Source of the DNA: Rhizoctonia solani
Lineage: Eukaryota; Basidiomycota; Agaricomycetes; Cantharellales; Ceratobasidiaceae
NCBI RefSeq assembly: GCF_016906535.1
Contig: NC_057370.1
Coordinates: forward strand, 620,001-684,000
Direction: 5' to 3'
Length of the DNA stretch: 64,000 nucleotides
The first letter of the stretch is position 1; each line of letters begins with the position of its first letter. Below the pieces are notes generated by a model. It ran no database searches, had not been told where the DNA came from, and saw only the letters and a program-made list of their open reading frames with translations. A program made the position numbers and the translations under genes. Shown here one piece after another: positions 27,472 to 56,569 of this stretch.

Positions 27472-29556
27472 CACTGAGCAGCAAAAGTATTGCAGGTCAG
27501 GAGAGGTTGAAAGTTTATCTCCATTGCTCAGCAGCCAAACAGTGAATCCCATCCAAGTTATACTGACACATGTGGCCATTGTAACACTATGTCTTAGCAC
27601 AAAATCTTACAAATCTATCAAGAACTAAGCTCCTGTTACACTCCCTTAACATATACCACAGGAATCCCCTATTTTTTCTATTATTTTTAGTATTTTTTCT
27701 GGACTTCATATCTGTTGTTTCCCAATCACATGACCTTGGCGCTTATTATGCCAAGATGCCACGCCAAGATGCCAAGCCAAGGGCGCTTAAGAAACATCCA
27801 CGCTTCTGCGCAGCCTGCAGCACGGTTCTCATTTCACATGTACACTTCCTTTCTCACATGCACAGACCATGTAGATAGCACCCCTTTGATTATATATACA
27901 GCAGGAAAATCACTTGGAGACCCCAAGTCAATTTTACCTTGCCTCTTACTCATTAGAGAAGGTAGTCAGCTAGCTAAGTAGCTGGCCCCCTCAGTAGTAC
28001 CAATGTTTACCCCACTTATCTCACCTACCACACCTCCCAGGCCTAAGGCCCCTTTGTCAACTGTAGATAGCAGTAGGTTGCCTTATGTAACAGTAATTTA
28101 GCCTAGTCAGTAGATTACATAAGTCTTGCTTGTAGTAGTACAGCCGTAAGCGCCTGCCTTTACCAGCGTGTACCCACCTTACAGTGGTGTACAACAGCTC
28201 CCAACCCCACTTTTGCAAATTGTGTTGAGCATCTTACAAATCTGCACATAACTGATTGTGCAGTTCAGTATGAGTTCTGGTTTTTTACACACACATACTC
28301 AGTTATATGGGCCATTGCTGGACAGAGTATTAGCTTGTTTCACCCATTAGGGACTATATAACAGAACTGTCTTCTCAGGGCCAATAAAAGAAACTCAAAA
28401 TTGCAGTTGCATTCCACTCAAGGCACTGTGTGGGCTGGGGGTGCTTTGGGGTATTTCAGGTGACTGCTGGTACCCAGTGAAACAGTTTCCATGACATTCC
28501 CATACCTGGGACTGGCAATATAAGAGATTGCAGAGGGTCAGGCTGTATGAGCTGAAAATGGAAATGCCACTCCTAAGCTGGAATCCAAGCCAAATGACAT
28601 AGAACTTCTAGCAGCAGTAGACACAGGTGAAGAGTATGCTGAGATCAATTATCTATGGCAGCAGTGATGTGTACACAAAGATGGCATGCAGTATACACAG
28701 AGATTGCAGCCAATGGGTTGGGTCTCAAATTGAACATGTTCTAACTCTGTGATTGTCAATCATGAAACAGCCAGTTTTCCATCATAAGGTCTGTCTTAGA
28801 GGAACCTTCTACTGTATGAGTTTCAACCTCTTCCAATTGACAATCACAGAGTTAGAACATGTTCAATTTGAGACCCCACCCATTGGCTGCAATCTCTGTG
28901 TATACTGCATGCCATCTTTGTGTACACATCACTGCTGCCATAGATAATTGATCTCAGCATACTCTTCACCTGTGTCTACTGCTGCTAGAAGATCTATGTC
29001 ATTTGGCTTGGATTCCAGCTTAGGAGTGGCATTTCCATTTTCAGCTCATACAGCCTGACCCTCTGCAATCTCTTATATTGCCAGTCCCAGGTATGGGAAT
29101 GTCATGGAAACTGTTTCACTGGGTACCAGCAGTCACCTGAAATACCCCAAAGCACCCCCAGCCCACACAGTGCCTTGAGTGGAATGCAACTGCAATTTTG
29201 AGTTTCTTTTATTGGCCCTGAGAAGACAGTTCTGTTATATAGTCCCTAATGGGTGAAACAAGCTAATACTCTGTCCAGCAATGGCCCATATAACTGAGTA
29301 TGTGTGTGTAAAAAACCAGAACTCATACTGAACTGCACAATCAGTTATGTGCAGATTTGTAAGATGCTCAACACAATTTGCAAAAGTGGGGTTGGGAGCT
29401 TAGTTCTTGATGGATTTGTAAGATTTTGTGCTAAGACATAGTGTTACAATGGCCACATGTGTCAGTATAACTTGGATGGGATTCACTGATTGGCTGCTGA
29501 GCAATGGAGATAAACTTTCAACCTCTCCTGACTTGCAATAATTTTGCTGCTCAGTG
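27472..29556. mobile_element. Giant palindromic (foldback) element, copy 1
   Basis: Ends CACTGAGCAGCAAAAGTATT and its reverse complement ...TTTTGCTGCTCAGTG, with TA on both sides (27470-27471, 29557-29558). Excluding the LTR inserted at 27634-28196, it is about 1,517 bp and consists of two arms of about 720 bp that are almost perfectly complementary around a spacer of about 75 bp near 28765. It has no transposase. TA duplication and CACTG ends suggest mobilisation by a Tc1/mariner-type enzyme. Both arms lack the same 26 nt that copies 2 and 3 have in both arms. Confidence 0.85.
27634..28196 (+). repeat. Solo LTR, family A/G type, in palindrome copy 1
   Basis: TGTTACACTCCCTTAACAT to GGTGTACAACA, 563 bp; TSD GCTCC at 27629-27633 and 28197-28201. 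It contains AATCACATGACC next to TTGGCGCTTATTATGCC, the TATATATACAGCAGG box and CCTTATG/CCGTAAG repeats. It sits in the left arm of the palindrome only, showing it arrived after the palindrome. Confidence 0.92.
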
Positions 29557-33605: not shown

Positions 33606-34147
33606 TGTCAGAGCCAACAACTACCACAGGGTAAACCTAACTAGCTAACAGCCCAGAGGGACTTAAGTATGGGCTAGTAGGATCTAACAATGCTCAAAGG
33701 CAATTGCAAGATAGAGGGTGGACAAGACCAATTATAGTAAAGTGCACTGTGCTATAAAGATAGCAGGGCTAAGAACCTTTGACAGGGACTGGTATGCTCT
33801 CAGGCAATACTCTTAGGTGTATGTCTTAGGGTAGGTAGGTGTAGGAAGGGGTTAAGAGGTCAAGTTCTGAGGCTTAAGGCTCTCAGAACCCTCCTTATAT
33901 ATTCAACAGAGAGGGGAAGAGTACATACAATGACAAACACAATAACAAAGATAAGGTCACATGACCAAAGATAAGAAAGACATGATCACATGACCTTTAG
34001 TCTTGTGATTTGATTACATAATAGGCACCCAGCACCTAAACAGCATAAAGATGCATATATCCATAAATCTTCATGAAAATAGCACATATATTCACTATTT
34101 CTTTGACTTAGTGGATTTTAAGGTGGTCACGCCTCTAGGGCATGACA
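33606..34147 (-). repeat. Solo LTR D, antisense
   Basis: TGTCAGAGCCAACAACTACC to CTAGGGCATGACA, 542 bp; TSD ATAAG at 33601-33605 and 34148-34152. It is the reverse complement of the D LTR at 34312-34847 lying 165 bp away in the same LTR G. Confidence 0.93.
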
Positions 34148-34311
34148 ATAAGTCCCTTTACTTACCAGTAGATAGTACAGTAGTTGATCTCACCAGCCTT
34201 AGGCCTTTTACCACCATAGTTGGTAACCCCCACACTGCTTTAAGCAGCCCCTTCCATCAGTAGTATAGCCTTTAGGATAGATTTGCAGTATAGTAGTATG
34301 GTCTTAAGCAC

Positions 34312-34847
34312 TGTCATGCCCTAGAGGCGTGACCACCTTAAAATCCACTAAGTCAAAGAAATAGTGAATATATGCGCTATCTTCATGAAGATTTATGGAT
34401 ATATGCATCTTTATGCTATTTAGGCGCTGAGCGCTTATTATGTAATCTCATCACATGACCTTTAGTCATGTGATCTTGTTTTCTTATCTCTGGTCATGTG
34501 ACCTTATCTTTGTTATGATGTTTGTACATGTAATTACTCTTCCCCTTCTCTGTGAATATATAAGGAGGGTTCTGAGAGCCTTAAGCCTCAGAACTCAACC
34601 TCTTATCCCCATCCAACACTACTACCCTAAGACATACATTTAAGAGTATTGCCTGAGAGCATACCAGTCCCTGTCAAAGGTCCTTTGCCCAGCTATCTTT
34701 ATAGCATAGTGCACACTTACTGTATTGGTCTTGTCCAACCCCTTATCTGGCAGTTGCCTTGAGCTCTGTTAGATCCTACTAGCTGATAAGTCCTATATTA
34801 GGCAATAGCTTGTTAGGTTTACCCTGTGGTAGTTGTCAGCTCTGACA
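34312..34847 (+). repeat. Solo LTR D, sense
   Basis: TGTCATGCCCTAGAGGCGTG to GTTGTCAGCTCTGACA, 536 bp; TSD AGCAC at 34307-34311 and 34848-34852. It carries AATATATAAGGAGGG near 34555 and paired CACATGAC/GTCATGTGATC motifs near 34440-34470. Confidence 0.93.
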
Positions 34848-36605: not shown

Positions 36606-36719
36606 GATACATAACAAGAACAGGAGTAAGAAACAATTACTATGTACAAAAGTCTATGGGAATAATCAAGAACTAGTTTTAAATATCAGAATATATGCAC
36701 ACATTATATGCACAATATA

Positions 36720-38339
36720 CAGTGGCATGCAAATCAAATGCAACACGTGACCCCCCGTGCTTGCACTTGCTGCAACAGGCCGTGTAGGCCAATTTGTACT
36801 TTAGTCTAATAAAAAGAAATGCTTAAACAATAGAGAATTATTGTCCTACAAAGTCTCTGGGCACCTGGTGGCGTTGTTGGGAAAGTGCCATTGAATAACG
36901 TGCTTTCATTGTTGCATTTGATATGGCTGCTGACAAACCATATTGCCCCCTCCCCGGTTGGCAACCGCTCCCAACTGATTTAAGCCTGCTCATTGACTTG
37001 AATCATGATTAAGACACTCTTGCAATGCCTCCCAGGGGGCAACAGCACTCTCCTGAGCTTTGGGCCCAAATTCTGGCACTTTGGGATCTTGGTCTTACAA
37101 TCTACAAGATAGCTACTCAACTCAACGTTCCTCCCTGCACTGTCAGCCGTACTTGCACCTGATACCTGAAAACTTGTAGCTACTACTCTGATAGGTCCAG
37201 GTCTGGTTGCCCATGCAAACTCAGGTTTGCAGATGCAAAATTTGCGGCGCTTTCACTCTCTTGTAACTGTCTGGCCTCTGCATCCCAGCTCCATTGGGAC
37301 TATTTCTCTCATGTATCAAACTCTACGGTCTGCCAACGTCTGCGTGAGCTGGGCATCTATAACTATGCCTGTCACTGTGTCCCCCTACTCACAAGCCATC
37401 ATCTCAAGGCTTGTCTGGACTGGGCCAGAAACCATGCAACTTGGTTGGCTCAGGACTGGCGCCAGGTCATTTTTTCAGAGGAATCAAAATTTAACGTCTT
37501 CAATGGTGATGGCCCTCTACGCTGTTGGAGACGTCCAGGACTCTCTCTGGATCCTTGTTATACCTGCAAACAGGTCAAACATGGTGGTGGAAACGTGATG
37601 GTCTGGGGGTGTGTTACTGCAAATGGGGTGGGCCATCTGTACTGCATTGATGGCCACCTGACAGCTGTTCATTACACCAAGATCTTGAAGGAGGAGCTTT
37701 GTGGGACCATGGCTGACCTCTCTATCCCTGTTTGTTGCACTGTCTTTCAACATGACAATGACCCAAAGCATACAGCCAAGGTTACTCAAGAGTGGCTCAA
37801 TACTCAACAGCTCTCAGTACTCCCCTGGCCAGCAAATAGCCCATATATGAATATCATTGAGAATGTCTGGGACTACCTTGACCGTTGTGTGCGCATGAGG
37901 CATCAATTACCAACGCGTGCCAATGATCTCTGGGCCATTCTCCAGGAGGAGTGGGAGTGTATTCCACAGGCATATATTGACAAACTCTATGATTCTATGA
38001 CAGAAAGAGTGCAGGAGGTCATTGATAGGAAGGGTGGTAATACTTGTTATTAGTTTTTGTAGTAATTACAATAATGCATTGTTGCGTTGCGCACAAGTTT
38101 CTGTTCTCATTGCGCATTTTGCTTAGTCAGAGTCATAACAAATGCAACATCCAAAACTAGTATCTGATCATTATCTCCACCGGAACTACTCTGTTCTCCA
38201 CAGGAATTTACAAGGGCACTCAATAGCTCAATTCTAGCATTACTTATTATTATACTTAAGTACAAATTGGCCTACACGGCCCGTTGCAGCAAGTGCAAGC
38301 ACGGGGGGTCACGTGTTGCATTTGATTTGCGCGCCACTG
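36720..38339 (+). mobile_element. Tc1/mariner-type transposon
   Basis: 1,620 bp with inverted repeats of about 85 bp: CAGTGGCATGCAAATCAAAT at the left and CAGTGGCGCGCAAATCAAAT on the opposite strand at the right, both continuing through GCAACACGTGACCCCCCG and GGCCAATTTGTACTT with few mismatches. The TA target duplication is at 36718-36719 and 38340-38341, inside an LTR E fragment. One transposase gene fills the middle. Confidence 0.93.
37025..38053 (+). pseudogene. Tc1-like DD34E transposase with one stop
   Basis: Reads in one frame from ATG 37025 (MPPRGQQHSPELWAQILAL) to TAG 38051-38053, about 342 codons, with a single TGA at 37160-37162 (codon 46) in the N-terminal helix-turn-helix region. 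Catalytic segments: VIFSEESKFNVF, where the usual first Asp is Glu; FQHDNDPKHTA with the second Asp; and MNIIENVWDYLD with the Glu, 34 residues after the second Asp. The common SPDMN is SPYMN. Apart from the stop the frame is fully open, and the long TIRs are well preserved, so this copy was active not long ago but is probably inactive now. Confidence 0.9.
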
Positions 38340-38477
38340 TATGCTAGGTTTATCAGGGGTAATTAACTCCTGACAAATAGTCTAGCAACTATGCAGGGCA
38401 GGTGATTGGTTATGCATAGTACTTTTAGACTAATGTTACTTAAGCCTAAATGAGTAAGTGCTGTAGACACACACAAT

Positions 38478-42823: not shown

Positions 42824-44392
42824 TGCTGAGCAGCCAAAGTATTGCAGGTCAGGATAGATCAAAAGCTTATCTCCATTGTTGAGCAGCCAGTCAGTGAATC
42901 CCATCCAGATTATACTGACACATGTGGCCATTGTAACACTATGTTTTAGCACAAAATCTTACAAATCTATCAAGAACTAAGCTCACAACCCCACTTTTGC
43001 TGTAACTCCACCTGCAAAACCTTTGCCAATTGTGTTGAGCATCTTACAAATCTGCACATAACTGGTTATGCAGTTCAGTATGAGTTCTGGTTTTTTTCAC
43101 ACACATACTCAGTTATATGGGCCATTGCTGGACAGAGTATTGGCTTGTTTCACCCATTAGGGACTGTATAACATTAATGTCTTCTCAGGGCCAGGAAAAG
43201 AAACTCAAAATTGCAGTTGCATTGAACTCAAGGCACTGTGTGGGCTGGGGGTGCTTTGGGGTATCTCAGGTGACTGCTGGTACCCAGTGAAACAGTTTCC
43301 ATGACTTTCCCATACATGGGACTGGCAATATGAGGGATTGCAGTGGGTTAGGCTGTATGAGCTGAAAATGGAAATGCCACTCATAAGCTGGAGTCCAAGC
43401 CAAATGACACAGAACTTCTAGCAGTAGTAGACACAGGTCAAGGGTATGCTGAGATCAATTATCTAGGGCAGCAGTGATGTGTATACAAAGATAGCATGCA
43501 GTATACACAGAGATTGCAGCCAATGGGTGGGGTCTCAAATTGAACATGTTCTAACTCTGTGATTGTCAATTGGAAGAGGTTGAAACTCATACAGTAGAAG
43601 GCTCTTCTAAGACAGACCTTATGATGTAGAATTGGTTGTTTCCTGATTGACAATCACAGAGTTAGAACATGTTCAATTTGAGACCCCACCCATTGGCTGC
43701 AATCTCTGTGTATACTGCATGCTATCTTTGTATACACATCACTGCTGCCCTAGATAATTGATCTCAGCATACCCTTGACCTGTGTCTACTACTGCTAGAA
43801 GTTCTGTGTCATTTGGCTTGGACTCCAGCTTATGAGTGGCATTTCCATTTTCAGCTCATACAGCCTAACCCACTGCAATCCCTCATATTGCCAGTCCCAT
43901 GTATGGGAAAGTCATGGAAACTGTTTCACTGGGTACCAGCAGTCACCTGAGATACCCCAAAGCACCCCCAGCCCACACAGTGCCTTGAGTTCAATGCAAC
44001 TGCAATTTTGAGTTTCTTTTCCTGGCCCTGAGAAGACATTAATGTTATACAGTCCCTAATGGGTGAAACAAGCCAATACTCTGTCCAGCAATGGCCCATA
44101 TAACTGAGTATGTGTGTGAAAAAAACCAGAACTCATACTGAACTGCATAACCAGTTATGTGCAGATTTGTAAGATGCTCAACACAATTGGCAAAGGTTTT
44201 GCAGGTGGAGTTACAGCAAAAGTGGGGTTGTGAGCTTAGTTCTTGATAGATTTGTAAGATTTTGTGCTAAAACATAGTGTTACAATGGCCACATGTGTCA
44301 GTATAATCTGGATGGGATTCACTGACTGGCTGCTCAACAATGGAGATAAGCTTTTGATCTATCCTGACCTGCAATACTTTGGCTGCTCAGTG
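42824..44392. mobile_element. Giant palindromic (foldback) element, copy 2
   Basis: 1,569 bp, TA at 42822-42823 and 44393-44394. The left end reads TGCTGAGCAGCCAAAGTATT, the right end AATACTTTGGCTGCTCAGTG reversed. Arms of about 745 bp pair around an asymmetric spacer centred at about 43608. The right half lies against an LTR G fragment; the left flank does not continue that LTR, so one side was rearranged. Variants such as CATTAATGTC, GGAAAAG, TTGAACTC and GACTTTCCC are present in both arms but not in copy 1. Confidence 0.88.
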
Positions 44393-55000: not shown

Positions 55001-56569
55001 CACTGAGCAGCAAAAGTATTGCAGGTCAGGAGAGGTCAAAAGTTTATCTCCATTGCTGAGCATCCAATTAGTGAATCCCATCCAAATTTTACTGACAGAT
55101 GTAGCCATTGTAACACTATGCTGTAGCACAAAATCTTACAAATCCATCATGAACTAAGCTCACAACCCCACTTTTGCTATAATGCAACCTGCAAAACTTT
55201 TGCTGATTGTGTTGAGCATCTTCAAAATCTGCACATAACTGATTATGCAGTTCAGTATAAGTTCTGGTTTTTTTCACACACATTCTGAGTTATATGGCCT
55301 ATTGCTGGACAGAGTATTGGCTTGTTTCACTCATTAGGGACTGTGTAACAGAACTGTCTTCTTAGGGCCAGTAAAAGAGACTCAAAATTGCAGTTACATT
55401 GAACTCAAGGCACTGTGTGGGCTGGAATTGCTATGGGGTATCTCAGGTGACTGCTGGTACCTAGTGAGGCTGTCTCCAAGACCATCCCATACCTGGGACT
55501 GGCAATATGAGGGATTGCAGTGGGTTAGGCTGTATGAGCTGAAAATGGAAATGCCACTCATAAGCTGGAATCCAAGCCAAATGACATAGAACTTCCAGCA
55601 GTAGTAGACACAGGTCAAGGGTATGCTGAGATCAATTATCTATGGCAGCAGTGATGTGTACACAAAGATAGCATGCAGTATACACAGAGATTGCAGCCAA
55701 TGGGTGGGGTCTCAAATTGAACATGTTCTAACTCTGTGATTGTCAATTGGAAGAGGTTGAAACTCATACAGTAGAAGGTGTCTCTAAGACAGACCTTATG
55801 ATGGAAAATTGGTTGTTTCCTGATTGACAATCACAGAGTTAGAACGTGTTCAATTTGAGACCCAACCCATTGGCTGCAATCTCTGTGTATACTGCATGCT
55901 ATCTTTGTGAACACATCATTGCTGCCCTGGATCATTCATCTCAGCATACCCTTGACTTGTGTCTACTACTGCTAGAAGTTCTGTGTCATTTGGCTTGGAT
56001 TCCAGCTTATGAGTGGCATTTCCATTTTCAGCTCATACAGCCTAACCCACTGCAATCCCTCATATTGCCAGTCCCAGGTATGGGATGGTCTTGGAGACAG
56101 CCTCACTAGGTACCAGCAGTCACCTGAGATACCCCATAGCAATTCCAACCCACACAGTGCCTTGAGCTCAATGTAACTGCAATTTTGAGTCTCTTTTACT
56201 CACCCTGAGAAGACAGTTCTGTTACATAGTCCCTAATGGGTGAAACAAGCCAATACTCTGTCCAGCAGTGGCCCATATGACTGAGGATGTGTGTGCAAAA
56301 AACCAGAACTTGTACTGAACTGCATAATCAGTTATGTGCAGATTTTGAAGATGCTCAACACAATCAGCAAAAGTTTTGCAGGTTGCATTATAGCAAAAGT
56401 GGGGTTGTGAGCTTAGTTCATGATGGATTTGTAAGATTTTGTGCTAAAGCATAGTGTTACAATGGCCACATGTGTCAGTAAAATCTGGATGGGATACAAT
56501 GATTAGAAGCTCAGCAATGGAGATAAACTTTTGACCTCTCCTGACCTGCAATACCTTTGCTGCTCAGTG
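55001..56569. mobile_element. Giant palindromic (foldback) element, copy 3
   Basis: 1,569 bp, exactly the length of copy 2; TA at 54999-55000 and 56570-56571. Left end CACTGAGCAGCAAAAGTATT, right end reversed with one mismatch. Centre at about 55785, with the spacer in the same orientation as copy 2 and opposite to copy 1. Both arms share variants not in the others: GAGACTC, AATTGCTATGGGG and GAGGC(T)GTCTCCAAGACCATCCC. Left flank is old C coding sequence, right flank an LTR E. Confidence 0.88.

Follow-up and report, generated by a model that had tools for sequence, protein, structure and literature searches.

Tc1/mariner MITEs such as mimp, a MITE of Fusarium, resemble the palindromic elements of Rhizoctonia solani described here in their TA target duplication, in having no coding capacity that could be found, and possibly in ends that look like those of a complete Tc1-like element of their own genome. 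They differ in that the elements described here measure 1,569 and 698 nt, are fully palindromic, and have homogenised arms. A second likeness is to Galileo, a Foldback-like element of the P superfamily in Drosophila, which also has long inverted repeats that are alike within a copy, as well as chimeric copies. The two TIRs of a Galileo copy are 98-100% identical, whereas the average among copies of a subfamily is 92-97%; 12 chimeric copies combine TIRs from two subfamilies, and both ectopic recombination and conversion have been proposed, according to the available portions of two reports (PMC3573991, PMC4168063). Galileo, however, has a P-type transposase and a 7-8-bp target duplication, whereas the target duplication of the 1,569-nt family is TA, its ends begin with CACT, and the whole element is palindromic. 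Of the three complete Tetris elements, two have TIR repeats that cluster by element (PMC4079207).

Homogenised arms of inverted repeats have also been described in C. elegans (PMC1803023) and in the mitochondria of Nematomorpha, in a report that cites work on the primate Y (PMC6649704). In the accessible parts of these sources the arms co-evolve at loci taken singly, whereas here there are about 30 comparable dispersed copies in one genome. In yeast, polymerase template switching between inverted repeats homogenises the arms and inverts the spacers (PMC8604942); a likeness is found in two of our copies whose spacer is turned round relative to a common flank, but the yeast case, as far as the available text goes, concerns short repeats in genes, and the arms here are 747 nt long. 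Arm homogenisation is thus already known elsewhere, including in Galileo; what is new here is the whole-element palindrome and the record of tracts. The statement in the original prediction that no named fungal element is defined by such behaviour holds only in part; for Galileo, the available text of PMC3573991 describes TIRs that are near-identical within copies, and some chimeric copies. A literature search of best-ranked titles and abstract openings, with subscription journals largely outside its range, returned no fully palindromic Tc1/mariner-type elements with arm homogenisation.

The window analysed is a stretch of 64,000 nucleotides (C1:620001-684000), and the whole R. solani assembly of 40.7 Mb in 16 contigs was searched. 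The three palindromes described in the window are present, with TA on both flanks of all three (Table 1), and are members of a single family with a 1,569-nt consensus, made of a 747-nt arm, a 75-nt non-palindromic spacer and a second 747-nt arm. The ends read TA|CACTGAGCAGC, and a typical copy reads TA|CACTGAGCAGCAAAAGTATTGCAG ... CTGCAATACTTTTGCTGCTCAGTG|TA. Counted by recognisable ends, the family has about 49 members, whole or fragmentary, spread over 15 of the 16 contigs; this is a lower bound, as are all copy counts for this family. When 33 flanks were joined with a single TA, a spanning match was found for eight; the joined flanks of L017 and L019 align without gaps to unoccupied repeats at 96% and 93%. 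Because these repeats match with a single TA, the TA is taken as the target duplication. The spacers of 29 copies differ from one another by 12.5% on average. No listed open reading frame of at least 150 aa lies inside the three window palindromes, nothing in the window reaches the gathering score of an Rfam model, and an exact scan of viral contigs found no instance of the family end sequence.

Table 1. Positions of palindromes and associated repeats in the window, with the five 698-nt palindromes fetched from elsewhere in the assembly
Feature	Position	Strand	Remarks
Palindrome copy 1 (W1)	27472..29556	.	LTR-interrupted arm; 26 nt per arm shorter than consensus
Solo-LTR-like insert in W1 arm	27634..28196	.	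5-nt target duplication GCTCC
W1 spacer	28761..28835	.	Arms found at 28196-28760 and 28836-29400
Palindrome copy 2 (W2)	42824..44392	+	Arm differences 0/745 compared positions
W2 spacer, 75 nt	43571..43645	+	
Palindrome copy 3 (W3)	55001..56569	+	Arm differences 36/747
W3 spacer, 75 nt	55748..55822	+	
Inverted LTR-like pair (control)	33606..34847	.	164 nt apart, 88% alike, not homogenised
698-nt palindromes, five fetched	L067-L071 on C7, C10, C11, C15		

The near-perfect complementarity of the arms claimed for the window copies holds for W1 (6 of 721 positions differ) and W2, and is weaker in W3, where the differences fall in three tracts (index 14-122, 257-421 and 586-723 along the arm, counted from the outer end). 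In W2 the outermost two bases of the left end are TG, not CA. W1 spans 2,085 nt because one arm carries a 563-nt solo-LTR-like insert, and measures 1,522 nt without it and 1,517 nt after the 5-nt duplication is also subtracted. The closest relative of the insert is 90% identical (best of 40 scored, from 1,017-1,030 candidates in the genome). W1 had been said to lack the same 26 nt in both arms. This is clear in one arm (index 169-194), and 1,517 equals 1,569 minus 2 x 26; in the LTR-bearing arm index 177-194 is unmatched and the remainder is blurred by the target duplication, so that for both arms the statement rests on a partial alignment together with the exact length. Copy-specific variants do occur in both arms, as with ATTAATGTC only in W2 and GTCTCCAAGACC only in W3. 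The CCACTC/GAACTC example does not hold in the form given, as each of the three copies contains the two words: CCACTC is found twice per arm in W1 and once per arm in W2 and W3, and GAACTC in only one arm of W3. The inverted LTR-like pair stays unhomogenised, which counts against arm-to-arm conversion. Its right member is 99% identical to repeats elsewhere, and it was rejected as a second palindrome family, being two LTR-like repeats.

To compare arms within and between copies, 37 fetched loci and the three window copies were assembled, all from one assembly of one isolate. From these 40, three were dropped as segmental duplicates (L016, L028, L036) and six because under 600 of their arm positions could be compared (L010, L014, L020, L038, L043, L044), leaving 31. 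Single-base gaps occur between near-identical duplicates in this assembly, and indels were therefore given little weight. The two arms of a copy differ at a median of 0.67% of positions (mean 1.29%, range 0 to 9.64%), against a median of 8.84% between copies. Chance is excluded as the source of this likeness, because 10,000 random re-pairings of left and right arms gave no mean below 6.79%. Among non-majority states, 1,033 are alike in both arms, 292 are found in one arm only, and four differ in each arm. The arm tree that had been proposed as a test (FastTree, approximate maximum likelihood) pairs the arms by copy in 27 of the 31, the exceptions being L015, W3, L032 and L035, and contains no clade of at least four arms that are all left or all right. 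This pairing supports the original prediction, which offered two options, conversion after insertion or remaking at mobilisation; the evidence below favours conversion. The picture has to be amended in that W3 is a partly unhomogenised mosaic and that copies also swap tracts.

The differences that remain between arms are mostly clustered over tens to a few hundred nucleotides. In L009 they occur only from index 437 inward, in L019 all nine lie within index 131-233, in L029 they are confined to index 596-652, and in L026 to index 723-743. L025 departs from this pattern: its five sites are single and scattered. Position along the arm also matters. With L015 left aside, index 150-599 holds 69 of 224 arm differences (31%), against 61-62% of the between-copy differences, and 69 of 200 when index 740 and above is also excluded. 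On the latter basis the rates are 1.37% in the outer part (index 0-149), 0.52% in the middle and 1.67% on the spacer side (index 600-739). Among the 26 copies that show no more than ten differences below index 740, the corresponding rates are 0.41%, 0.27% and 1.07%. The spacer-side excess is therefore general, and the outer excess, being weak in these 26 copies, comes mostly from four divergent ones. Index 743, where the same G/C difference is found in 19 copies, is in effect part of the spacer. This pattern fits conversion within bounded homology better than remaking of full-length arms.

Several copies carry tracts that match other copies. The left arm of L019 is identical to W3 over index 125-240 (0 of 115 differ) and one base from the L023 group, and its right arm over the same interval stays with its own group, two differences from L011. 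Both arms of L029 have 520A, 525C and 559C, alleles that outside L029 occur only in W1, and the left arm alone has W1 alleles at 601, 604, 615, 619 and 642. The misfits to a W1 donor are 596 and 628 in the left arm and 547 in both, together with changes at 651/652 in the right. Most simply, a W1-like tract was imported into the left arm, and its outer part (520-579) was then copied to the right. The arms of L015, which differ at 72 of 747 positions as do those of its duplicate L016, derive from two lineages, and its right flank, not its left, matches the repeat that hosts L017, with coinciding edges. Such a mosaic of flank and arm is as expected of exchange between copies. L032 and L035 have a common 1,752-nt flank with one substitution, relative to which their spacers lie in opposite orientation. 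Sites 508, 513 and 533 are unequal between the arms of L035 and equal in L032, and site 401 is unequal in both. Because their other flanks differ, this pair could also come from exchange between copies.

A second family of palindromes was found, of 698 nt, with ends CACTAAGCAGCAAAAATATTGCA, TA flanks, and at least six copies by end search. It is palindromic over its entire length, and at the sensitivity used it matches the 1,569-nt family only in the end sequence. In the five copies fetched, all seven arm substitutions at index 4-309 are present in both arms; one-arm differences are limited to index 1 and 3 and to 310-320, a stretch in which the centre of two copies runs in the opposite direction. 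By sequence, this palindrome appears to be unrelated in its interior and to behave like the 1,569-nt family.

The ends may point to a common type of transposon. L060 is a Tc1-like element, 1,644 nt long with the TA on each side included, that is also found at L063 and C9:1122321; it encodes a 380-aa frame with DDE_3 and HTH_Tnp_Tc3_2 domains that matches the Sleeping Beauty transposase. The first 25 nt of the 1,569-nt family resemble the L060 end TACACTAGCTCGCAAAAATATTGCA with a local score of 30, equal to the best of 500 shuffles, and the match is located exactly at the tip; the end of the 698-nt family is intermediate. Judging from these ends, both families appear to be of Tc1/mariner type; the 1,569-nt family would be a non-autonomous member with a TA target and CACT...GCAAAARTATTGCA ends. 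Because the tip similarity is short, we call them Tc1/mariner-type and regard them as probably, not certainly, mobilised by a transposase of the L060 type. Searches with the ends for an autonomous copy gave palindromes, broken copies (L046-L056) and isolated hits here and there at close to the chance rate (in one such search the reversed pattern had 17 matches versus 93). The best candidate for such a copy is Tc1-like and related to the family, yet distinct from it. L052, in which other DNA follows 102 nt of arm, was considered as an autonomous element and rejected, since an LTR retroelement appears to interrupt it (its reading frames were judged by eye).

We consider it probable that these patterns result from short-tract gene conversion between the arms, in place, together with exchange between copies, in a non-autonomous element of Tc1/mariner type. 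The two arms would align with each other by folding back, in a cruciform or across sister chromatids; one arm would serve as template while the other is repaired or replicated. Mutations and imported tracts would thereby be copied to both arms or erased, and recombination with copies elsewhere would import variants, produce mosaic arms and at times move flanks. Mobility would probably be supplied in trans by a Tc1-like transposase, as the ends suggest.

The main alternative is that every move rebuilds the copy from one of its arms, by snap-back or hairpin-primed synthesis or by template switching during excision-gap repair, with the arms drifting apart after insertion. Remaking explains alike arms at many insertion sites, the near-identical L011 and L021 with alike arms at different sites, and, for the young 698-nt family, the seven both-arm changes against no one-arm change at index 4-309; it also explains how two unrelated interiors became full-length palindromes. 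However, it predicts evenly scattered one-arm differences, whereas many copies show tracts, though the sites of L025 are single and scattered, and it does not predict tracts from other copies in one arm, as in L019 and L029. It would also seem to require very recent jumps in most of the 31 lineages, which lie about 9% apart, and we regard it as unlikely.

Copies that are truncated or interrupted by an LTR bear on the same choice, since remaking on the move does not predict homogenised arms in the end-truncated L045 or the LTR-bearing L013. The left arm of L045 is cut at about index 18 and its right tip is changed at four of the first ten bases, with TA still following; it is 12% from its nearest relative. 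Direct alignment of its arms gives 657 identities, no substitutions and 13 gap columns. The consensus-anchored table lists 8/689 and 6/618 differences, of which the 8/689 included a separate left tip piece, and for that reason tip-to-tip divergence in this copy was dropped as an internal clock. L013 has an LTR in one arm whose closest scored relative is 83% identical (best of 40 scored), and its arms differ at 0 of 668 positions over index 20-689; over the same interval the arms of W1 differ at 4 of 644 despite the insert. The strongly differing arms of L015 and L016 count against homogenisation, and among the interrupted copies L041 is a counter-example, in that its LTR also has a best relative at 83% but its arms differ at 32 of 742 positions (27 of 666 at index 20-689). 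In all these cases the best LTR relative sets an upper bound on age only, with 40 of 1,017-1,030 candidates scored. Taken together, L045, L013, W1 and the L032/L035 pair favour conversion in place. Three pairs of recent segmental duplicates, tried as a conversion clock, proved too young: none shows an arm change, and with no substitutions over the whole compared length they are uninformative on conversion.

A further possibility, which we hold to be quite doubtful, is that fold-back synthesis linked to Tc1-type mobility, in the repair of excision gaps, makes full-length palindromes from unrelated DNA lying between like ends and then keeps remaking them. If so, the 1,569- and 698-nt families would be its products, and L033 with its 3.3 kb of inverted flank an overrun. 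This element (locus L055, C12:28000-36500) lies at the centre of a larger palindrome, with 3,320 nt of perfect, gapless inverted flank on each side and no continuation within the next 6 kb on either side; it is either a recent inverted duplication with the element in its middle or a misassembly of the fold-back kind.

Selection for a hairpin, as a DNA cruciform or a long double-stranded RNA, could in principle keep the arms complementary by compensatory change. The arms are able to pair over 747 nt, and a transcript forming a hairpin would naturally give rise to small RNA. Yet the 296 arm differences in the 31 copies comprise 103 that would pair as G-U in one direction of transcription, 82 in the other and 111 transversions, with no strong wobble bias, and compensatory change does not yield multi-site blocks common to other copies; we judge this reading very improbable. 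An artefact of assembly or consensus, with one arm a fold-back or a wrongly polished duplicate, is suggested by the suspicious flanks of L033 but is equally improbable given dozens of copies with different flanks yet common ends, spacer and TA, empty sites that match with a single TA, the 72 and 36 arm differences retained in L015 and W3, and the arms of L045, between which there are 13 gap columns but no substitution, as could happen with arms read independently.

Descriptions of gene conversion between the arms of palindromes have so far mostly concerned loci taken one at a time. In the present case one genome offers about 30 comparable copies, at varied sites and with varied histories, and therefore tract length, position effects, imports and the effects of interruption can be read directly. 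The identity of the arms is unusable for dating such elements, and the question is raised of how elements with Tc1-type ends became wholly palindromic at least twice.

The tallied copies are clustered: 46 of the 49 lie within the densest 350-kb block of their own contig, counting trivially four contigs with one copy only, and these blocks make up 14% of the contigs concerned. One copy-rich block per contig could be a centromere or other repeat-rich chromatin; a word search of the text of PMC7884421 found no instance of 'centromer', 'MITE' or 'inverted repeat'. Several copies (L013, L014, L015, L017, L019 and L020) are inserted in another repeat family at or close to one position, which may be a preferred target. 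The palindrome at L022 sits inside a second, broken copy of the 1,569-nt family (L047, C14:51900-55900), and L046 (C7:2091041-2091500) is a deletion derivative in which 396 nt of one arm are fused to the outer 67 nt of the other, with intact ends. Between C11:1225-1312 kb and C13:778-865 kb, four pairs of loci occur in reversed order (L015/L016, L024/L028, L025/L036 and L051/L052), and on comparison one pair shows 18 substitutions and the other three show none; the arrangement suggests an inverted duplication of about 87 kb between the two contigs. In the window itself, a Tc1-like element of a different family lies at 36717-38342; its TIRs (TACAGTGGC...) are 107 nt long, and a reading frame with DDE_3 lies at 37445-38053. 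An actin-like reading frame is found near the edge, at 820-1527, and Ty3-type gag and reverse transcriptase are among the reading frames further into the window.
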